The notes below the pieces were generated by a model. The model worked only from the letters and a program-made list of their open reading frames with translations, was not told the DNA's origin and did not search any database. A stretch of DNA of 46,504 bases from the NCBI GenBank assembly GCA_035559435.1, contig DATMBC010000052.1:1-46504 (forward strand), in the 5' to 3' direction. Each line of letters starts with the position of its first letter. The stretch's first letter is position 1. This DNA is from a bacterium. Lineage in GTDB: Bacteria; Zixibacteria; MSB-5A5; WJJR01. Positions 8,803-35,691 of the stretch are shown here, one piece after another. The position numbers were made by a program, and so were the translations under genes.

Positions 8803-10374
8803 ATGCCGCCAGCCGCCAAACAAATCCTCTGGGTCGACGACGAGATCGATCTGCTCAAACCCCACTTCCTGCTTTTGCAGGAGCGCGGCTACGAGGTCAC
8901 CGGCGTCCACTCCGGCGATGATGCGCTCGATCAGGTCCGTGACCGCCGCTTCGATCTGGTGCTGCTCGATGAGCAGATGCCCGGACGCGACGGCCTGAGC
9001 ACCCTGGTCGAACTCAAGACGCTGGATCCCAACCTCCCGGTGGTCATGGTCACCAAAAGCGAGGAAGACCGGATCATGGACGAGGCGATCGGCAAGAAGA
9101 TCGACGATTACCTCACCAAACCGGTCAATCCCTCACAGGTCCTCCTGGTGGTGAAAAAACACCTCGAGCGGCGCAAGATTCAGTCGGAGCATCTGGCCAA
9201 GCAGTACGTCGACGACTTCCGCCGTCTGCAGGAAGAGATTTCGCGCTCGTCGCATTGGTCGCAGTGGCTCGACGCGCACCATGTCATGTCGCGCTGGGAC
9301 ATCGAGCTCGACCGTTTCCCGGCATTGGGGCTCGATGAGACTCACCGCGAGCACAAGCGCGAACTGAACGCCGATTTCGGCAAGTGGATGGAACGCGAAT
9401 ACCCGCGCTGGCTGGCCGATCTGGAATCCCGCGACCGTCCGCCGCTGTCCATCGACATCGTGCCCCGCTGGCTGGCGCCGCACCTGCGCGAGGGCAAAAA
9501 GGTTTACTTCTTCGTCATCGATTGCATGCGGCTGGACCACTGGATCAACATCGAGCCCGAACTGGCCGAATCATTTCAGATCGAGCGCGAACATTACTTT
9601 TCCATCCTCCCGTCGGCGACGCCCTTCTCCCGCAACGCGATCTTCTCCGGGCTGTTTGCCGATGAGATTCAGCGGCTCTATCCCGAACTCTGGCAGATTG
9701 GCGACAAGGATGAGTTCTCGCGCAACCGGCTCGAGCGCCAACTGCTCGACCAGCAACTGGCCCGGCTCGGCATCCGCCTGCCCAGCGAGGCCAAGTACAT
9801 CAAGGTCCTCGACTTCGCCGAGGGCGACAACCTGGCGCGCAAGTTTTCCAGTTACAAGACCACGCCGCTTCTGTCCGTGGTCTACAACTTCATCGACCAT
9901 GTCTCCCACGGCCGCTCCGAGGACGAGATCCTGCATGAGCTGGCCGTCGACGAGGCCGCTTTCCGCGGGCTGATGAAGACCTGGTTTGTCAATTCCTCCT
10001 GGTCGAAGGTCCTGCGCAAGATCGCGCGCGATCCGAACGCCGTCTGCGTCATCACCACCGACCACGGCAGCATCCTCGGGATGCGCGGCGCGGTCGCGCA
10101 TGGCCGCCGCGACACCTCGCCGTCGCTGCGCTACAAATTCGGCGACAATCTGAACGCCGACCCGCGCGAGGCGGTGGTCATCCCCGATCCCAAGGCCTGG
10201 CGGCTGCCGCGCTTCACCATGAGCACAAGTTATCTGCTGGCCAAGGAGGACTTCTTCTTCGTCTATCCGACCAATTTCAACGAGTTCCAGCGCAAGTTCG
10301 CCAACACCTTCCAGCACGGCGGCATCTCGCTGGCCGAGACCGTCCTGCCGATCGTCACCCTGCGTCCGAAGTGA
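8803..10374 (+). CDS. porX: PorX-like response regulator with PglZ alkaline-phosphatase-superfamily domain
   Basis: This 523-residue protein is a CheY-like receiver fused to a PglZ domain, the architecture of PorX, the T9SS regulator of Bacteroidota. The receiver (residues 7-125) has Asp12/Asp13, phosphoacceptor Asp56 in LVLLDEQMPG, Thr84 and Lys106, and the PorX-like stretch MVTKSEEDRIMDEAIGKKI. A helical linker leads to the PglZ domain. That domain keeps the metal-site and nucleophile pattern: Asp240 in FFVIDCMRLDHW, Thr273 in LPSATPFSRNAIFSG, and Asp420-His421 in ITTDHGS. There is no DNA-binding domain. Work on P. gingivalis PorX showed zinc-dependent phosphodiesterase activity and control of T9SS; the conserved residues suggest this protein is active too. 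Its stop lies 8 bases before tsaE. Confidence 0.92.
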   Translation: MPPAAKQILWVDDEIDLLKPHFLLLQERGYEVTGVHSGDDALDQVRDRRFDLVLLDEQMPGRDGLSTLVELKTLDPNLPVVMVTKSEEDRIMDEAIGKKIDDYLTKPVNPSQVLLVVKKHLERRKIQSEHLAKQYVDDFRRLQEEISRSSHWSQWLDAHHVMSRWDIELDRFPALGLDETHREHKRELNADFGKWMEREYPRWLADLESRDRPPLSIDIVPRWLAPHLREGKKVYFFVIDCMRLDHWINIEPELAESFQIEREHYFSILPSATPFSRNAIFSGLFADEIQRLYPELWQIGDKDEFSRNRLERQLLDQQLARLGIRLPSEAKYIKVLDFAEGDNLARKFSSYKTTPLLSVVYNFIDHVSHGRSEDEILHELAVDEAAFRGLMKTWFVNSSWSKVLRKIARDPNAVCVITTDHGSILGMRGAVAHGRRDTSPSLRYKFGDNLNADPREAVVIPDPKAWRLPRFTMSTSYLLAKEDFFFVYPTNFNEFQRKFANTFQHGGISLAETVLPIVTLRPK

Positions 10375-26369: not shown

Positions 26370-26398
26370 TTGACAGCATCCGGCGCCGGCTTCATCAT
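26370..26398 (+). promoter_or_regulatory. Probable promoter of the receptor-cargo-PorV cassette
   Basis: A consensus -35 box, TTGACA at 26370-26375, and CATCAT at 26393-26398 are 17 bases apart. This would give a leader of about 190 bases before the receptor start, long enough for RNA-based control. Confidence 0.5.
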
Positions 26399-26592: not shown

Positions 26593-29583
26593 TTGCGCAA
26601 ATTCGTGAACACACTCTGGGTGCTCAGCTTCGCGGCCTTGTTGCTGGCCGTGAGTGCCTGGGCCGGCACCACGGGCAAAATTGCCGGCGTGGTGACAGAC
26701 AAGACCAACGGCCAGCCGATCCCCGGCGCGGCCATCTCTATCGTCGGAACGACATGGGGAGCCCTGACCGACGAAGAAGGCCGCTTCGTCATTCTCAACG
26801 TCCCCGTTGGCACCTATACCCTCAAAGCGACGATCGTCGGCTTCGCGCCGATGGAAGTCACCAACGTCGGGGTCAACGTGGACCTCACCACCATCCAGGA
26901 CTTCGCGCTCTCGTCGGAGGCGGTGGAACTGGGCACCGTCTCGGTGACCGCCGAGCGGCCGCTGGTCAAGCAGGACCGCACATCCTCGCTGCGCATTGTC
27001 GGCGCCGAAGACGTGCAAAATCTCCCGACCCGCGGCTATCAGGATGTCGTCGGGCTGCAGGCGGGCGCGATCCGCTTCTCCGACAACGTCGGCGTCCGCC
27101 AGCGTGGCGGCCGTGAGAACAGCACCACCGGCACGCTCAACGTGCGCGGCGGCCGCTCCTCGGAAGTCGCCTACTACGTTGACGGCTTCTCGCAGCAGGA
27201 TCCACTCACCGGGTTGTCGACCACTCAGATCAACAACAACTCGATCCAGGAAGTCTCGATCGTCACCGGCGGATTCAATGCCGAGTATGGCCTGATCATG
27301 TCGGGTGCCGTCAACGTCATCACCCGGGCGGGCACCGACAAGTTCCATGGGACTTTCGAGACGGTGACCGACAACTTCCACGGCGAGAATTATGACTTTA
27401 ACGTCTACTCCGGCGTGCTCTCCGGCCCGATTACTCCGGGTTCGGACAAGCTGACCTTTTACGTCGCCGGGGAGCGCCGCTGGGCGGGCGACCGCGAGCC
27501 GCACGCCACCGCCGGTGGGATGCTCCCGAACAACGAGTCCGGCCTCTGGAACTGGCAGGGCAAGTTGAACTGGCGCCCCTCGGGGAATGTCTCGGCCCTC
27601 GTCGGCACCAACGGATCGGTGGAAAAGTGGCAGGAGTACCGCCACGACTACCTCTTCAACATCCAGCACACGCCGAAGTATGATGACCGCAACTACAGCG
27701 TCTTCGGCGAGCTGACCCACACGGTCAACTCGAAGACCTTCCACACGCTCAAGGCCAACTGGTTCTCGACCGAGCGCATTCGCGGCGACGGCGTGCACTT
27801 TGACGACCTGTGGGCCTACGGTCGTCCGAGCGGCAATCCCAACTTCGATCAGACGCAGTTGTACACGGCTTGGGATGACATGAATCTGGACCCCGACAGT
27901 CTGGAGCATGGCAGCGAGGAGAACAAGTACTTCCCGCTCGTCACCCCGCACGAAGACAGCGTCTTCGAAGTGTTGATGCCCGACGGCAGCACGCGCGAGC
28001 AGTCCTTTGTGGTTCGTGGCGACGAAGCGACCGTCTGGGACGACCTGCTGAAGCGGAAGTCATCGTACGTCGGCGCCGATTGGGACCTGGTCAGCCAGGT
28101 GCACCCGAACCACGAGGTCAAGGCCGGACTCGAATTCCAGCGCCACGCGCTGCGCCGCTACCAGCACCTGTTCCCGGTCAATGTCTACCAGGGCGCCAAC
28201 GGCGGTTTCGACGACATCGACCACTTTGGCTACAATGAGTTGGGCGAGGAGTCCGACGAGGGAGGTCTCAACTCGGTGAAAAATCCGATCAACATGGCCG
28301 CCTACCTGCAAGACAAGTTCGAATGGGAGGGGCTGGTCGTGAACGCCGGGTTGCGGTTCGATTACTTCGATTACAAGACCGAACGGCTGGTTGATCCCGA
28401 GCAGCCGCTGGATCCGTTCGACCGGGCCACCTACGCGGACACGGCGACCGGTCTTTCCGATGAGGAGCGCAACGCCCTGCGCCAGGGAGCTCAGGAACTC
28501 TCCGAGGACGAACTCACCAGTTCGGAGTCCGTCTCGCGGCTCTCGCCGCGGCTTGGGGTTGCCTTCCCGGTGGCCGACGGCTCCGTGTTTCACTTCTCCT
28601 ACGGGAAGTTCTTCCAGCGGCCCGACCTGCAAAACCTGTATGTGAACTACGACTACCTCGAGTACAAGATCCGCACCGGCGGATACTTCTTCGCGTTCGG
28701 CAACCCGAATCTGGAGCCGGAAGAGACCACCGCCTATGAGGCCGGGTGGCAGCGCCGTGTGAGCGATAACGCCTCCATCGACATCACGGCCTTCTACAAG
28801 GACGTGAAGAACCTGACCGAGGTCGTGACCCAACCGGCGATCCCGAATTCGTTTTCGACCTACCGCAACGTCGACTACGGCACGGTGAAGGGCGTTGAAT
28901 TCTCGCTGGATGTGCGCCGCTCGCGCAATATCTCGGCGCAGTTCAACTACGCGCTGGCCTACGCCGACGGCACCGGTTCCTTTGCCAACACCCAGTCCAA
29001 CATCGCCTGGACCGTGGCCGAGCCGCCCAAACACGCCACGCCCTTGGAGTTCGACCAGCGTCACAAGATCACTGGCGTGCTCGACATCCGCACCGGCCCC
29101 GGCGAAGGTCCCAAGCTCGGCGATTTCTACCCGCTGGAGCGCGCAGGCGTCAATTTCGTGCTGGGCGCCGGGTCGGGCTTCCCGTATTCGCCGGTCTTCG
29201 TCTATAACGAAGTCACGCTCGGCGCGATCTCGCCGCGACCTTCCGGCCCGATCAATTCGCGCCGTCAGCCGTGGCAGTACCGTGTGGACATGAAGGCCAA
29301 CCGCGAAATCACCATCGCTGGCAAGATGAATCTCGATCTGTATGTCTGGGTCATCAATCTCTTCGACCGCGACAACGTTGTCGACGTGTACGAGTCGACG
29401 GGCCTGCCGAACGAGACCGGCTGGCTGGAGACGCCCGATGGTCAGCAGTTCATCGTCGACAACTCGATGATCCACGATACATCGCGCCTGACCGGAGAGG
29501 AGAAGTATCAGGTCAGACAGGCCGATCCGCGCAACTACGACACGCCGCGGCAGATTCGATTCGGCGCGCGGTGGACATTCTAA
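26593..29583 (+). CDS. TonB-dependent outer-membrane receptor with carboxypeptidase-regulatory-like domain
   Basis: This 996-residue protein is an outer-membrane active transporter. After a signal peptide (VLSFAALLLAVSAWAG) comes a CarboxypepD_reg-like domain (GKIAGVVTDKTNGQPIPGAAI ... DEEGRFVILNVPVGTYTL), as in SusC-type receptors. The plug follows, with VSVTAERPLVKQDRTSS as TonB-box-like region, GTLNVRGGRSSEVAYYVDG and VNVITRAGTDKFHGTF. The barrel fills the rest and ends with aromatic Phe (QIRFGARWTF). The start is taken as TTG at 26593, because AAGGAGGG at 26581-26588 fits it and would lie inside the gene if the ATG at 26569 were used. No SusD gene follows; instead an exported protein with a T9SS-like tail and a PorV-like barrel do. 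The ligand is unknown. Confidence 0.92.
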   Translation: MRKFVNTLWVLSFAALLLAVSAWAGTTGKIAGVVTDKTNGQPIPGAAISIVGTTWGALTDEEGRFVILNVPVGTYTLKATIVGFAPMEVTNVGVNVDLTTIQDFALSSEAVELGTVSVTAERPLVKQDRTSSLRIVGAEDVQNLPTRGYQDVVGLQAGAIRFSDNVGVRQRGGRENSTTGTLNVRGGRSSEVAYYVDGFSQQDPLTGLSTTQINNNSIQEVSIVTGGFNAEYGLIMSGAVNVITRAGTDKFHGTFETVTDNFHGENYDFNVYSGVLSGPITPGSDKLTFYVAGERRWAGDREPHATAGGMLPNNESGLWNWQGKLNWRPSGNVSALVGTNGSVEKWQEYRHDYLFNIQHTPKYDDRNYSVFGELTHTVNSKTFHTLKANWFSTERIRGDGVHFDDLWAYGRPSGNPNFDQTQLYTAWDDMNLDPDSLEHGSEENKYFPLVTPHEDSVFEVLMPDGSTREQSFVVRGDEATVWDDLLKRKSSYVGADWDLVSQVHPNHEVKAGLEFQRHALRRYQHLFPVNVYQGANGGFDDIDHFGYNELGEESDEGGLNSVKNPINMAAYLQDKFEWEGLVVNAGLRFDYFDYKTERLVDPEQPLDPFDRATYADTATGLSDEERNALRQGAQELSEDELTSSESVSRLSPRLGVAFPVADGSVFHFSYGKFFQRPDLQNLYVNYDYLEYKIRTGGYFFAFGNPNLEPEETTAYEAGWQRRVSDNASIDITAFYKDVKNLTEVVTQPAIPNSFSTYRNVDYGTVKGVEFSLDVRRSRNISAQFNYALAYADGTGSFANTQSNIAWTVAEPPKHATPLEFDQRHKITGVLDIRTGPGEGPKLGDFYPLERAGVNFVLGAGSGFPYSPVFVYNEVTLGAISPRPSGPINSRRQPWQYRVDMKANREITIAGKMNLDLYVWVINLFDRDNVVDVYESTGLPNETGWLETPDGQQFIVDNSMIHDTSRLTGEEKYQVRQADPRNYDTPRQIRFGARWTF

Positions 29584-29654
29584 GGGCGTAATCACAGGAC
29601 GTGGACGCCCGTTGGTACGCCAGGCGCGCCCGGGCGATGCGAAGGAGGACATGG

Positions 29655-32648
29655 ATGAAACGCTGGACTTGGGTGATTTCCGGACTGGCAATGCCGCTGG
29701 CGGCCGTGATGGTGATCGCGGCCGGACCGCGGCAGTCGCCCGCGCCGGCCTCGCCCCAAATCATCGACAACACCACGTTTTTCGACGCGAACAATCTGTT
29801 GATGTTCGTGGGCAATACCGGTTCGTTCGCCTATGACCGCACTGCGCTCCTGGGCAAGAACGATGGCCTGTATTATCCCAAAGGTACCAACACGTCGGTG
29901 ATCTATGCCGCCGGCGTCTGGATGGGTGCCAAGGTGAATGGCGGCGTCCGTACCGCCGCCGCCGAGTACGCTAATGACTACGTGCCCGGACCGATGGCCA
30001 ACGGCACGTTTCAGAGTGACCGCGGCAGTTATCGTGTCTATGTGATCAACAAAGGCGATACCCGCGAGACCAGCGAGGACTACCGGACCTGGCCGTTCGA
30101 CGACGGCGCTCCGGCGCTGAAAGCCGCCGACGGCTCTGATTCTCTGGACAGCGAAGGCAACCGGATCCCGCTGTTGCTTGGCGACCAGGCGCTTTGGAGC
30201 GTTTACAACGACGCCAGCGTCGCCGGACGCGAGTCCGATCCGGGAAGTGGCTCCGCCGGACCTTTGGGCGTGGAGATCCAACACTATGTGTTCGGCTACG
30301 CACGTGCCGGCGCCCTCGGTAACACGATCTTCATGCAGTTCAAGATCATCAATAAGGGCGGCAACCTCCTCGAGGACACCTACATCTCGCTGTGGGCCGA
30401 TCCCGATCTGGGCGACGCGGGCGACGACTTCGTCGGATGCGACACGACCCTCTCGATCGGCTTTTGCTACAACGCCGATGCGGACGATGCTTCCTATGGA
30501 GACAAGCCACCGGCTGTGGGCTTCGACTTCTTCCAGGGACCGATTATCCCCGCGCCGGGCGTCACAGACACCATTCTGGTGGACGGCAAGGTCAAAGTCG
30601 TCACTGGCTACGAGGAACTGCCGATGACCTCGTTTAATAAGTACATCAATGGCACCGACCCGTCGAACAACATTGAGACCTACAACTACATGCAAGGTCT
30701 GGAGATCAACGGCACCCCCCACGTGTACAACGGCGACACCGTCAAGTTCTTCATGAGCGGCGACCCCGTCACCGGCACCGGTGAGTTGGACAACAACGCC
30801 GCCGACCGCCGCTACATGATGACCTCGGGGCCATTTACGATGAATCCGGGCGACACCCAGGTGGTGGTGGCCGCGGTCATTGTGGCACAGGGCGACAATC
30901 ACCTCTCGTCCGTGCAGCGCCTGCGCGAGACCGACCGGATCGCGCAGAACGTGTTCGATGCCAACTTCGACATCCCCGGCCCGCCGCCCCCGCCGACCGT
31001 CTGGCAGATTCCACATGACAACGCGGTGCGCCTGTTCTGGGGAGTGGAGGCCGACGGCGACGTACAGGAGTCTTACGGGCCCCCGGTCGAGCCAGGCGGC
31101 GAGCCGGTCTTATTGCAGCGCTTTGTGCATGAGGGGTTCAACGTGTACCAAGGCGCGTCCAGCTCGGGACCCTGGACCAAGATCGCAACGTTCGATCTCA
31201 ACAACGATGTCGAACGCATTTACAATGATGTCGACAACCCGGAGGGCAGGGAGCGTGTCGTTGTCCAGCACGGTTCCAACACCGGGTTGCAACATGAATT
31301 GCTGGTCGTGCAGGACCGGATCCGCGGCGGCGGGATAGTAAACAACCGACCATACTACTTCGCCGTCACCGCCTACAACTATGACGAACTTAACGCGGTG
31401 CCTTTCACCGATGAATTGGGAAACCCCTTCGGAATCATCGCGGAGTCGTTCGAAACGCTGCCCTCGGCGCCTTCCGATGGTGTGGTGCCGCTGTCCATGA
31501 CCGGCATCCTGGCAGACACCGCCGAACACCTGTCCGGAATCAGCGACGGTACCGTGTTGATCGACTTCTACGATCCGACGGCAGTGACCGGTCACACGTA
31601 CAACGTCACGTTTAACGAAGACTTGTCTTGGAACCTATTGGACGTTGACGATGACGAGTTCCTGCTGCAAAACGAGACTTTTCCGATCAGTTCCGAAGGC
31701 ACGGATGGCTTCATTCTCCGTGTGCTGGGGCCGTCAGCTGGCATCAAGTCCATCGTGGAGGTCGCCAACGCCAACGGTCCGGTTGATCCGCCCGACAACG
31801 TCGCATTCTCTCGTAATTCGACCGGTGACTGGTATATCTCCTCCGACGATGGAAACAACTGGGCGCGTTTGAACTGGCGCGGTCTGATTGGCGTCAGCGA
31901 CTGGGAGTTCCGCTTCACCAGCGAGGGCTCCGAGTACTACGACTGGAGCACGGACGAAAAGTGGCCGAATCGGGCGCCGTTTGAGGTCTGGAACATCGGT
32001 CCCGGCACGATCAACAATACCGCCGATGATAGACGCGTGCAATTCGCCGTCCTCGACGACGATGAGTCGGGCGGCTGGAGCATGGGTGACCGCATCTACG
32101 TCATCGAGCGGGAGTACGTTGAGCCGCTACCGGCCACAGCCGTCTACGATTTCCCGGCCGATTTCCACATTGGGCGCATCATCATTAACGACCTTTCCGG
32201 GAACGGGCCGTGCGCCGAGGGCACCATCATTCGGTTCACGACCAACAAGCCGAATGCCCCGGAAGATCTCTTTGAGTTCGTCACCCACGTGCCCGGCGAT
32301 GGCGACGGGACCGTCATTAAGAACGCTGTCGACAACGTCTACCCGGTGCCGAATCCGTACTACAACCTGACCTCCCTGGAACTGGATCAGTTCCGCCGTC
32401 AGATCAAATTTGTCAATCTGCCGCCGGCGCTCACCACCATCCGCATCTTCAACCTCGCGGGTGACTGTGTGCGGGTGCTGACGAAGGACAATCCCGGCTC
32501 CGCCGAATTGGTCTGGGATGTCTTGACCGAAACCGGCCTGCCCGTCGCCTCCGGCATGTACATCTACCATGTCGAGGCCGAGGGGATCGGCACCAAGATC
32601 GGCAAATTGGCGGTGTTCACCGAGGTGGAGCAGCTCAACACCTATTGA
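29655..32648 (+). CDS. Large exported protein with T9SS-like C-terminal sorting tail
   Basis: This 997-residue protein starts with a signal peptide (WVISGLAMPLAAVMVIAAG). The first 300 residues hold repeated Gly/Asp-rich beta stretches such as FVGNTGSFAYDRTALLG and VIYAAGVWMGAKVNGG. A fibronectin-III-like region follows near residues 445-600 (VRLFWGVEADGD ... RPYYFAVTAYNYDE). The last 100 residues, from about 896, read VYPVPNPYYN, then IRIFNLAGDCVRVLTK, LVWDVLTETGLPVASGMYIY and a final KIGKLAVF. That is the pattern of type A T9SS sorting domains, close to FlgD-like Ig domains. I infer cell-surface or secreted location. The ATG at 29655 has GGAGG six bases upstream. Family members of this kind are common but uncharacterised; function unknown. 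Confidence 0.8.
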   Translation: MKRWTWVISGLAMPLAAVMVIAAGPRQSPAPASPQIIDNTTFFDANNLLMFVGNTGSFAYDRTALLGKNDGLYYPKGTNTSVIYAAGVWMGAKVNGGVRTAAAEYANDYVPGPMANGTFQSDRGSYRVYVINKGDTRETSEDYRTWPFDDGAPALKAADGSDSLDSEGNRIPLLLGDQALWSVYNDASVAGRESDPGSGSAGPLGVEIQHYVFGYARAGALGNTIFMQFKIINKGGNLLEDTYISLWADPDLGDAGDDFVGCDTTLSIGFCYNADADDASYGDKPPAVGFDFFQGPIIPAPGVTDTILVDGKVKVVTGYEELPMTSFNKYINGTDPSNNIETYNYMQGLEINGTPHVYNGDTVKFFMSGDPVTGTGELDNNAADRRYMMTSGPFTMNPGDTQVVVAAVIVAQGDNHLSSVQRLRETDRIAQNVFDANFDIPGPPPPPTVWQIPHDNAVRLFWGVEADGDVQESYGPPVEPGGEPVLLQRFVHEGFNVYQGASSSGPWTKIATFDLNNDVERIYNDVDNPEGRERVVVQHGSNTGLQHELLVVQDRIRGGGIVNNRPYYFAVTAYNYDELNAVPFTDELGNPFGIIAESFETLPSAPSDGVVPLSMTGILADTAEHLSGISDGTVLIDFYDPTAVTGHTYNVTFNEDLSWNLLDVDDDEFLLQNETFPISSEGTDGFILRVLGPSAGIKSIVEVANANGPVDPPDNVAFSRNSTGDWYISSDDGNNWARLNWRGLIGVSDWEFRFTSEGSEYYDWSTDEKWPNRAPFEVWNIGPGTINNTADDRRVQFAVLDDDESGGWSMGDRIYVIEREYVEPLPATAVYDFPADFHIGRIIINDLSGNGPCAEGTIIRFTTNKPNAPEDLFEFVTHVPGDGDGTVIKNAVDNVYPVPNPYYNLTSLELDQFRRQIKFVNLPPALTTIRIFNLAGDCVRVLTKDNPGSAELVWDVLTETGLPVASGMYIYHVEAEGIGTKIGKLAVFTEVEQLNTY

Positions 32649-32694
32649 TCATGCGACGGCCCAGGGAACGGGCCTTTCCATGGAGGCAGGAACG

Positions 32695-33708
32695 ATGAAA
32701 ACCAGAACAATTCTCGCAGCGGCGTTGGTGATGCTACTGATCGCCTCGGCCGCCTATGCGGGTGACGACCTGAAAATCGGCTCCGCCGGGGGGCAGCAGT
32801 TGCGCATCCCGGTCGGTTCCCGCGGCACCGCGATGGGCGGCTCCACCGTCGCCAACTCCTATGGCCTCGATGCGCTGTACTGGAATCCGGCCGGCGCGTC
32901 GTCCATCGAAGGCACTGAATTCATGTGGTCCAATCGGCAGTACATCGCCGACATCGACATCAACTACTTTGCCGGCGCCCGCCGCGTCGGCGACTTTGGC
33001 GTGATCGGCTTCAATGCCAAGATCACCTCAATGGACGATGAGATCGTGCGCACCGTCGACTTCCCCGAAGGCACCGGCGCCACCTTCTCCTCGTCGTTCG
33101 CCGTCATCGGCGCCACCTACGCCCGCACCCTCACCGACCGCGTCTCGCTGGGCATCAACAGCAACGTGATCTATGAAAAGATCGCCGAACAGACCGCGAT
33201 GGGGCTGGGCTTTGACATCGGCTTCCACTACAACCCGGGCTGGCAGAACGTCACCTTCGGCGCCGTGATCAAAAACCTCGGACCGAAGATGCGCTACGAC
33301 GGCCCCGGCTTCGACTGGGACACCGAGACCGGCGACGATCCCAACAGTCTGCCGCACACCACGCGCTCGCGCTCGGCGGCGTTTGAAATCCCGTCCTACG
33401 TGCAACTGGGCGCGGCCTACAAGCTCTTCGAGCAGCAAAAGAACGTGGTCAATGTCTCCGGCGCCTTCCAGTCGAACAACTTCTCCGAAGACGAGTGGCG
33501 CTTCGGCGGCGAGTACGCCTGGGACAACAAGTTCTTCCTGCGCGGCGGCTACACCGCCTCCAACCAGGATGACTACCTCTTTGGCGCCTCGTTCGGCGCC
33601 GGACTGCGGTTCAACGTCGGCGACTCGCGCTGGCAGTTCGACTACGCCTGGTCGGCCAGCGAGTTCTTCGATGACAACCAGTACTTCACTTTCCAGGTCG
33701 GATTCTGA
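32695..33708 (+). CDS. PorV/PorQ-family (UPF0164-like) outer-membrane protein
   Basis: This 337-residue protein has a signal peptide (LAAALVMLLIASAAYAG) and then an FadL-like beta barrel. The signature is at residues 40-65: PVGSRGTAMGGSTVANSYG followed by DALYWNPAGASS, typical of PorV/PorQ proteins. The C-terminus ends with alternating beta strands and a final Phe (YFTFQVGF). In P. gingivalis, PorV carries T9SS cargo from the translocon to the attachment complex. Placed 46 bases after a gene for a protein with a T9SS-like tail, this barrel probably serves that cargo; that role is inferred. GGAGGCAGG precedes the ATG at 32695. A strong terminator follows. Confidence 0.87.
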   Translation: MKTRTILAAALVMLLIASAAYAGDDLKIGSAGGQQLRIPVGSRGTAMGGSTVANSYGLDALYWNPAGASSIEGTEFMWSNRQYIADIDINYFAGARRVGDFGVIGFNAKITSMDDEIVRTVDFPEGTGATFSSSFAVIGATYARTLTDRVSLGINSNVIYEKIAEQTAMGLGFDIGFHYNPGWQNVTFGAVIKNLGPKMRYDGPGFDWDTETGDDPNSLPHTTRSRSAAFEIPSYVQLGAAYKLFEQQKNVVNVSGAFQSNNFSEDEWRFGGEYAWDNKFFLRGGYTASNQDDYLFGASFGAGLRFNVGDSRWQFDYAWSASEFFDDNQYFTFQVGF

Positions 33709-33728
33709 CCTGTCCTGATGGCCACAAG

Positions 33729-33766
33729 CGCCGGTCCCGGATCCATCCGGGACCGGCGTTTTCTTG
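33729..33766 (+). terminator. Strong rho-independent terminator after the PorV-like gene
   Basis: A 13-base-pair perfect stem (33729-33741 with 33746-33758) closes a four-base loop and is followed by TTTTCTTG. It separates the receptor-cargo-PorV cassette from the amidase gene. Confidence 0.92.
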
Positions 33767-33804: not shown

Positions 33805-35691
33805 ATGCGACCGACGCTGCCGACCAGATTCGCCGCCGTCGCGCTGCTGCTCGGGGCGGCTGCGCCGGCGTTTACGCAGGAGCCGCCGCGCGCCCGTTCC
33901 CCGCAGGATTCCGCCCCGGTCATCAACATCGTCTACCCGCCGCGCGATCAGGTGATCGCCCCGGTCGACTCGACCTTTGTCATTGGCTCGGTGACGCCGG
34001 GCGCCAAGCTCACGATCAACGGCCAGCCGATCGACGTCTACCGCACCGGTGGCTTCCTGGCCTGGGTGAATGTGGAGCCGGGCGACTTCGTTTTTCGTCT
34101 GCGGGCCCGCAACAAGTTTGGCGCCGATTCGCTCGACTTGCCGGTCCGAATCACCGACAACCGACCCATCCCGCCCGAAGAAGGCGCGCGCATCCGCGAC
34201 GGCTCGGCGCGTCCGATCTGGAACCGCACCATTCGTCCCGGCGATGAAGTCCCCGTCAGTTTTGACGGCACCATGGGCGGGACCGCCCGGTTCTGGATCA
34301 TCGCCAAACGCGACACCACCGGCCCGTTTCCCATGACCGAGCTGCGCGCCCGGTCGCTGTCGAGTTTCGAGGCCTACCGGCGCGACGAGATCGCCAACCA
34401 AAGCCCGCTTCTGACCGGCGGTCCGACCCCATCGCGGGGGCGATACCACGGCATCTGGACGGCGCCGGAAAAACTGGACAACGACACGCTCGCGGTGATG
34501 TTCGAACTGCTGGTCGCCTCGCCGAAAGCGGGATCGGCACGCGCCACCGCCACCGGATTGCTCATCCCGGTGCACCATCTCCCGCCGCGCGTGGTCGAAC
34601 TGATCGACTCCATCCAGATTCTCCGAACCGGCCCGCGTATGGGCTACTTCGCCATCAATCAGCCCTATGGCGTGCGCGCCCGCTGGTGGGGCACAAACGG
34701 CCCCTGGACCATCGTCCAGCCCGCCCCTGGTCTGGAGGCCTGGATCGAGACGGAGAAGATGCGCCTGCTTCCGGAGGGCACTCCGATCCCCGAAGCCGTC
34801 ATTCCCCGCCTGAACACCGTCGCGACCGACTCTTCGGTGCGACTTGAGGTCGGGATGTCGGAACGGCTCCCGTTCAAGGTTGCCGTCGACGATGACCTCC
34901 GGGGCGCATCGATCACGCTCTATGGCGCGATCTCGAACACCGACTGGATCGAGCGCGATTCGGTCGATGACCTCTTCGCCGATATCGCCTGGGCCCAGCC
35001 GGAGCCGAAGATCTATCGCATCGATGTCGAACTCACCGAGCCGCTCTGGGGCTATGACACACGCTATGAGGATAGCCGTTTTGTCTTCGAAGTCTACCGC
35101 TCGCCGTTGCGCGACTCAACGCTCGACGGCCTGACCATCTGTGTCGATCCGGGCCACTCGGCCGATCCCGGTTCGGTCGGGCCCACCGGGCTGGTTGAAA
35201 AGGACGCCAATTTGAAGATTGCGCGCGCGCTGGTGGCGCAGTTGCAGGCCATGGGCGCGCAGGTCATCATGACCCGCACCGGCAATGAGGATGTTCCCTT
35301 GGCGCAACGGCCCGGGATCGCCTTCAACGGCGGCGCCGACATCTATGTCTCGGTGCACAACAACGCCGTCCCCGACGGGGTCGATCCCCGCCGTCGCAAC
35401 GGCACCAGCGTCTACTACCATCATCCGCACAGCCGCGCCCTCGCGACGGCCGTCCACCGCCGGACGCGCGCGGCCACCGGGTTGGCCGACTATGGCCTCA
35501 CGCAGGCCAACTTCGCGGTCATCCGTCCGCCGCAGTATCCGTCCGTCCTGGTCGAGTGCGCCTTCATCATCCTCCCCGAGCAGGAGGAAATGCTCGACAA
35601 CGACGCCTTCACCACGCGCACCGCGCATGGCATCGCCGATGGCATCCTCGAGTTTGTGCGCGAACGCTTTCGCGTGCGCCGCTCCGATTAA
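33805..35691 (+). CDS. N-acetylmuramoyl-L-alanine amidase (Amidase_3) with long N-terminal extension
   Basis: This 628-residue exported enzyme cuts the bond between MurNAc and the peptide in peptidoglycan. After a signal peptide (FAAVALLLGAAAPAFTQ) come about 420 residues of beta-rich sequence. It opens with an Ig-like stretch (VIAPVDSTFVIGSVTPGAKL) of the kind that binds surfaces or partners. The catalytic domain occupies residues 440-625 and has all zinc-site and catalytic residues: His451 in VDPGHS, Glu465 in GLVEKDANL, His518 in YVSVHNNAV and Glu584 in LVECAFI. The ATG at 33805 is chosen since earlier in-frame starts lie before or inside the terminator. Its stop lies two bases from that of the convergent permease gene. 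Confidence 0.9.
   Translation: MRPTLPTRFAAVALLLGAAAPAFTQEPPRARSPQDSAPVINIVYPPRDQVIAPVDSTFVIGSVTPGAKLTINGQPIDVYRTGGFLAWVNVEPGDFVFRLRARNKFGADSLDLPVRITDNRPIPPEEGARIRDGSARPIWNRTIRPGDEVPVSFDGTMGGTARFWIIAKRDTTGPFPMTELRARSLSSFEAYRRDEIANQSPLLTGGPTPSRGRYHGIWTAPEKLDNDTLAVMFELLVASPKAGSARATATGLLIPVHHLPPRVVELIDSIQILRTGPRMGYFAINQPYGVRARWWGTNGPWTIVQPAPGLEAWIETEKMRLLPEGTPIPEAVIPRLNTVATDSSVRLEVGMSERLPFKVAVDDDLRGASITLYGAISNTDWIERDSVDDLFADIAWAQPEPKIYRIDVELTEPLWGYDTRYEDSRFVFEVYRSPLRDSTLDGLTICVDPGHSADPGSVGPTGLVEKDANLKIARALVAQLQAMGAQVIMTRTGNEDVPLAQRPGIAFNGGADIYVSVHNNAVPDGVDPRRRNGTSVYYHHPHSRALATAVHRRTRAATGLADYGLTQANFAVIRPPQYPSVLVECAFIILPEQEEMLDNDAFTTRTAHGIADGILEFVRERFRVRRSD

Follow-up and report, generated by a model that had tools for sequence, protein, structure and literature searches.

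A TonB-dependent receptor, a tailed exported protein and a PorV-family barrel as a conserved gene trio in Zixibacteria and other lineages

A three-gene set is described here from a member of the Zixibacteria (assembly GCA_035559435.1, contig DATMBC010000052.1), whose 3.0-Mb genome is available in 106 contigs. The window analysed is the whole of contig 52, 46,504 bases in length. On its + strand lie, in this order, a gene for a TonB-dependent receptor of 996 residues (26593..29583), a gene for a 997-residue exported surface partner, referred to below as the cargo (29655..32648), and a gene for an outer-membrane barrel of the PorV/PorQ family, 337 residues in length and likely the dedicated carrier or anchor of the cargo (32695..33708). 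A sequence-only reading had already placed the genes here, and its coordinates held, as did, to the residue, the length it gave for the second protein. The likely starts each follow a Shine-Dalgarno-like site, AAGGAGG before both the TTG at 26593 and the ATG at 29655 and GGAGG before the ATG at 32695, and the intergenic gaps measure 71 bp (receptor to cargo) and 46 bp (cargo to barrel). The single terminator claimed to close the set is a strong intrinsic one (33726..33761, + strand), with a stem of 16 pairs, 11 of them G-C, a 4-base loop and a T-rich tail. It lies between the barrel gene and the next gene, which encodes an N-acetylmuramoyl-L-alanine amidase with a likely start at 33805. Ahead of the trio, a promoter-like site (TTGACA-17-CATCAT; 26370..26398, + strand) matches the consensus at 10 of 12 positions only, and is regarded as weak because four such sites were found against 2.3 expected in shuffled sequence. 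The receptor, cargo and barrel genes are proposed to form a single transcription unit.

The first protein carries a CarboxypepD_reg-like N-terminal domain followed by a plug and a β-barrel, all over the Pfam cut-offs (PF13620/PF13715; PF07715, 31.9 bits; PF00593, 102 bits), and the plug and TonB-dependent barrel make it a TonB-dependent receptor. A segment of it (LGTVSVTAERPLV; 26929..26967, + strand) contains the motif V.V.AERP(L/I)V, which recurs among the receptors of relatives; the segment resembles a TonB box and may act as one. The label “SusC-like”, applied earlier to this protein, was not upheld. A SusC identity was considered and rejected, as the score against TIGR04056 was 72.6 bits and the curated cut-off is 368 bits, and the protein is accordingly named a TonB-dependent receptor of the CarboxypepD_reg type. 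The companion claim, that its partner is not SusD, did stand: no SusD-family lipoprotein adjoins the receptor, and no SusD was found in 55 of the 56 genomes searched, namely this one and 54 relatives, the remaining relative, of low quality, giving a match. Because SusD is missing from these 55 genomes, the trio is a candidate for the role of receptor plus surface partner in this class.

The cargo is predicted to comprise a signal peptide, a large β-supersandwich-like N-terminal region, Fn3-like and other β domains, and a C-terminal domain (CTD) of the T9SS (type IX secretion system) type. Across the whole protein no Pfam family was found over its cut-off, and sequence comparison with solved structures gave no match. 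Its AlphaFold2 model (predicted local distance difference test, pLDDT, 86.0; predicted template-modelling score 0.64) is confident, multi-domain and all-β. Foldseek ranked PorU (6za2) and PorZ (5m11) first for the full-length model, followed by many enzymes of the GH116/GH94 type; in this search the CTD alone yields a meaningful named match, to PorU and PorZ. By a reading of the match list, the first ~430 residues seem to resemble the β-supersandwich domain of GH116, GH94 and related enzymes, and this region could serve as a ligand-binding scaffold, a resemblance that does not in itself prove carbohydrate binding. An enzyme activity was considered for the cargo and set aside; none is claimed because the GH116/GH94-type matches are partial (template-modelling, TM, score 0.15-0.19 of the query) and the catalytic barrel is absent.

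The tail of the cargo (32337..32648, + strand), which ends in a short C-terminal extension (GKLAVFTEVEQLNTY), had been described as T9SS-like, and profile comparison bears this out. An hhalign comparison of a profile of 16 trio tails with nine of this genome's canonical type A tails gave a probability of 98.3 and an E-value of 1.1e-14. A Gly and a Lys are invariant in the 16 trio tails, which come from many phyla, and the Lys is in register with that of the canonical tails; they correspond to the Gly in loop β3-β4 and the Lys in the final strand of type A tails, to which the domain is homologous. Both residues are functionally important in CTDs (PMC11285876, PMC10994853). In most trio tails, among them the ones from Ignavibacteria and Marinimicrobia, the chain extends about nine residues beyond the last strand. 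The curated models closest to the tail are the PorU/PorZ CTD model and TIGR04183, the type A CTD family. The CTDs of PorZ and PorU are not removed (PMC11285876), and in Porphyromonas gingivalis PorZ is held by PorQ and PorU by PorV (PMC5562754). The type B tail model, TIGR04131, gave no match at E 0.01 in the whole genome, nor in the control genomes, and the pair at the trio does not classify as a type B CTD with an SprF/PorP carrier.

The third protein is a PorV/PorQ-family barrel, as had been supposed. It scores 169 bits against the family profile NF033709 (cut-off 90) and is modelled as a FadL-like 14-stranded barrel, while falling far below the cut-offs for PorV proper (NF033710, 59.5 versus 250 bits) and PorQ proper (NF033711, 76.8 versus 220 bits). 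Its sequence profile matches PorV in the PDB (6h3i) at E 2.6e-25 and FadL at 2e-4. The AlphaFold2 model (pLDDT 84.6) finds its best PDB fold match in PorV of the substrate-bound T9SS translocon (8gl6_F; TM 0.72/0.67), and comparison of the model with the PorV chains 8gl6_F/6h3i_F gave TM scores of 0.72/0.70.

The genome itself encodes the core of a T9SS, evident from SprA (480 bits, in a frame of 2063 residues), PorU (572 bits) and the PorV-family gene adjoining PorU, and 28 type A tails score over the cut-off. The earlier reading would have failed had the tail been a plain FlgD-like domain in a genome free of T9SS; such a genome is ruled out, as regards the core of the system, because SprA, PorU and the 28 tails are present. 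The claim that the surface partner leaves by type IX secretion thus has genomic support in the class of the tail and in this core. In a search of 58 genomes, SprA exceeded its cut-off in 55, this one among them; it did so too in 11 of 12 trio genomes from other phyla, with a short match in the twelfth. In the genome of the window, the canonical type A tails are not accompanied by a PorV gene, and many other tailed proteins have no receptor alongside. About 16 kb from the trio, at 8803-10374 of the window, one protein combines a PglZ domain with a response-regulator receiver, a composition known from PorX, the regulator of the T9SS.

The arrangement of the three genes is widely conserved. Relatives of the cargo, sampled by similarity to it and with frames called mechanically, were found on 543 stretches of a collection holding one genome per species, as well as in 38 of 58 related genomes, and neighbours were read in 80 loci and in those of the related genomes. 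Among 80 distinct T9SS-tailed cargos with enough flank on both sides, 74 are immediately preceded by the receptor and immediately followed by the barrel, and three further loci (77/80) joined them once frames that were mis-extended or frameshifted had been checked by hand; the median gaps are 21 and 18 bp. Dockerin-tailed homologues of the cargo had a receptor or barrel neighbour in none of ten cases (Fisher p ~6e-11 for 76/3 versus 0/10, not corrected for kinship). The trio arrangement is far beyond chance. Non-conservation, which would have undone the earlier reading, is ruled out because the order receptor, cargo, barrel recurs in 74-77 of the 80 loci, drawn from eight lineages named in the record titles: Zixibacteria, Eisenbacteria, Ignavibacteria, Calditrichota, KSB1, Marinimicrobia, Gemmatimonadetes and Rhodothermales. 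Stygiobacter electus, deposited as a named strain, also carries the trio.

Two further features were seen around these loci. A dockerin-like segment stands in place of the T9SS tail on homologues of the cargo body in loci L081, L087, L089, L101-L104, L111, L125 and L172, with several such proteins in a row in L104. A gene for a GWxTD-domain protein is the first one downstream of the trio barrel, at a distance of ~60-150 bp, in Ignavibacteria, Calditrichota and KSB1 (L142:11217-12587, L174:11354-12718 and ~13 similar loci).

The barrel is one of several paralogues. Many PorV-family matches occur in each of 17 well-completed genomes, and most genomes examined hold about seven to nine such genes over the family cut-off. 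Upstream partners of these genes were read in nine genomes from different families, all of which contain at least one trio, and a tree of 79 barrels was built. Seven partner classes were distinguished. One lies beside PorU, two belong to trios, two are the first and second members of a tandem pair that follows a FlgD-tailed protein, and the last two follow a giant tailed protein and LptE, respectively. On the tree, partner class requires 7 changes (minimum 6, shuffles 47.4) and genome family 47. PorV-family paralogues group by gene partner, not by genome, and these partner-specific clades lend genomic support to the earlier suggestion that the PorV-like carrier is a dedicated one. The family to which this genome belongs holds two paralogous trio groups, each forming one clade with a support of 100 in all three gene trees, and the pairwise distances among the trio proteins of the paralogous groups correlate at 0.85-0.90. 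By these comparisons, the trio genes have been duplicated and have stayed together, the paralogous trios diverging as units.

The other partner classes have features of their own. Two tandem PorV-family barrels, belonging to two separate clades, follow a FlgD-tailed protein in a conserved arrangement (L032:4859-6829, L189, L193, L199, L205, L215, L219, L224, L230). Barrels of the LptE-class clade are immediately preceded by a short protein that bears the same motif at its C-terminus (L030, L188, L191, L200, L206, L212, L222, L232), and the short protein of L222 matches LptE, the lipopolysaccharide-assembly lipoprotein family. Giant tailed proteins of ~990 to 3470 residues precede their own PorV-family barrel, often one with a fused C-terminal extension (L033:2776-14186, L195, L207, L214, L225, L233). 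The PorU-linked PorV is 780-910 residues long, a barrel with a ~500-residue insertion near its N-terminus (L035:1242-3941, L186, L190, L198, L202, L211, L218, L223, L229).

Together, these data are best explained by a TonB-dependent surface complex, in which the partner is exported by type IX secretion, is held by its own PorV-like barrel and acts with the receptor, an account that is judged slightly more probable than not. In such a complex the cargo would cross the inner membrane by means of its signal peptide and would exit through the SprA channel by virtue of its T9SS-type CTD, as the tail and the presence of SprA, PorU and PorV in the genome suggest. Its own PorV/PorQ-type barrel would then collect the cargo and keep it bound, in place of cleavage and release, a step suggested by the partner-specific PorV clades, the class of the tail and precedent. 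Anchored in this way, the cargo would sit at the surface with the TonB-dependent receptor encoded upstream and aid in ligand capture, playing for the receptor the part that the lipoprotein SusD plays for SusC, although delivered by type IX secretion. We infer complex formation, a substrate and transport for the trio from these lines of evidence.

Several observations weigh against this proposal. The cargo falls below the curated TIGR04183 cut-off of 23 bits, scoring 16.3 bits as a whole protein and 21.7 as an isolated tail, and its tail has a weak likeness to FlgD. That the tail would escape cleavage by PorU is argued from its resemblance to the PorU and PorZ CTDs only, and no sequence feature was found to separate cleaved from uncleaved CTDs (PMC11285876). 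The neighbours of the trio in the window do not make up a catabolic locus that would point to a ligand. One tailed paralogue of the cargo has neither neighbour (L141:6821-10162), and one trio lacks a detected barrel (L126). Additionally, the motor protein GldM gave no match in this genome, in ten relatives or in eight trio genomes of other phyla; its absence is not claimed because no control genome matched either.

The chief rival among the explanations weighed is that the barrel serves as a secretion carrier only and the cargo acts alone, being cleaved by PorU and either released or linked to lipopolysaccharide as an adhesin or surface-layer protein, with a receptor that is co-regulated but independent. 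Canonical type A cargo takes such a route (PMC10994853, PMC5562754), PorU is encoded in the genome, and a large all-β cargo with no catalytic domain would suit a surface-layer or adhesive role. Set against this, the canonical tails of the genome do without an adjoining PorV gene, and the co-duplication of three genes in a fixed order across phyla is hard to explain with an unrelated receptor, such that this account is considered unlikely, if still one to be reckoned with. It is more doubtful still that the receptor helps in the export or surface assembly of the cargo, in the manner of Oar of Myxococcus, a TonB-dependent transporter with a TonB box that is required for secretion of the protease PopC (PMC6434023). 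The receptor has a CarboxypepD_reg-type N-terminal extension and a TonB-box-like motif, and another energy input is conceivable given that GldM was not matched, in controls or otherwise. Yet the many tailed proteins of the genome with no adjoining receptor indicate that type IX export needs none, and SprA with PorV-type barrels suffices in the known mechanism.

A last alternative would have the tail as a FlgD-like fold with no T9SS function and the third gene as a FadL-type channel, taking up hydrophobic compounds together with the receptor. The isolated tail does match the FlgD_ig model, along with the Por_Secre_tail and PorU/PorZ CTD models, in every case below the cut-off, and a weak match to FlgD models was likewise obtained; PorV has a FadL fold, and the barrel model also matches FadL and TodX. 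The alignment of the tail to canonical type A tails nevertheless reaches E 1e-14 and puts the key Lys in register, the barrel is closer to PorV than to FadL by sequence and by fold, and the T9SS core is present in the genome. This alternative is considered highly improbable.

The T9SS is usually viewed as the way out for enzymes and adhesins, in which one PorV serves all type A cargo. A broader reading of the present data is that the PorV/PorQ family has expanded, in members of the Fibrobacteres-Chlorobi-Bacteroidetes group other than the classical Bacteroidota, into barrels that serve as dedicated carriers or anchors, each with its own surface partner. By this reading, one widespread class of these barrels equips TonB-dependent receptors with a partner that the T9SS exports and the barrel anchors, which would be a second means, next to the SusD lipoproteins, of joining a surface partner to a receptor. 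This generalisation is offered tentatively, with a little less than even confidence. If true, the trio, which is retained in at least eight lineages of phylum rank, would directly couple the secretion of proteins with the import of nutrients, would show how bacteria lacking SusD could equip a receptor with a large surface partner, and would help to account for the large numbers of PorV-family genes in these genomes. Hundreds of unannotated proteins of ~1000 residues, together with their PorV-family neighbours, also gain a specific assignment that can be put to the test. A search of open-access papers found no description of a PorV and TonB-dependent receptor combination in these phyla. Relatives of each part are known already, as is the pairing of carrier and cargo for type B CTDs and in the attachment complex; in the open-access papers searched, no account was found in which a CTD protein of type A-like character is coupled both to a PorV-family barrel of its own and to a TonB-dependent receptor.

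In mechanism, the exact precedents are the PorU:PorV and PorZ:PorQ pairs and the type B CTD with SprF, none of them named in the sequence-only reading. In the attachment complex of P. gingivalis, a T9SS-exported protein keeps its CTD and is held at the surface by a PorV/PorQ-family barrel, as would be the case in the trio, and the CTDs of PorZ and PorU are those closest to the cargo tail by sequence and fold. However, both pairs belong to the secretion machinery and are present in single copy, whereas the trio pair is tied to a TonB-dependent receptor and a genome holds several copies of it; outside its tail, moreover, the cargo is not a sortase or a β-propeller protein. In the type B systems of Bacteroidota, the gene for the CTD protein likewise stands directly before that for its own 14-stranded carrier barrel, and the cognate PorP/SprF barrel also anchors the protein (PMC12618676, PMC9143113); unlike these, the trio CTD is type A-like, not TIGR04131, and its carrier is of the PorV/PorQ family. 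SusCD pairs resemble the trio in having a receptor gene followed by one for a large surface protein, and a CarboxypepD-like N-terminal domain on the receptor, but the trio receptor is below the SusC cut-off in a genome lacking SusD, and its partner is no lipoprotein and is predicted to exit by the T9SS with a barrel of its own. Finally, Oar and PopC of Myxococcus xanthus share with the trio a TonB-dependent transporter that bears an N-terminal extension and is functionally linked to an exported protein, in a system that, unlike the trio, has no T9SS, CTD or PorV-like barrel (PMC6434023).

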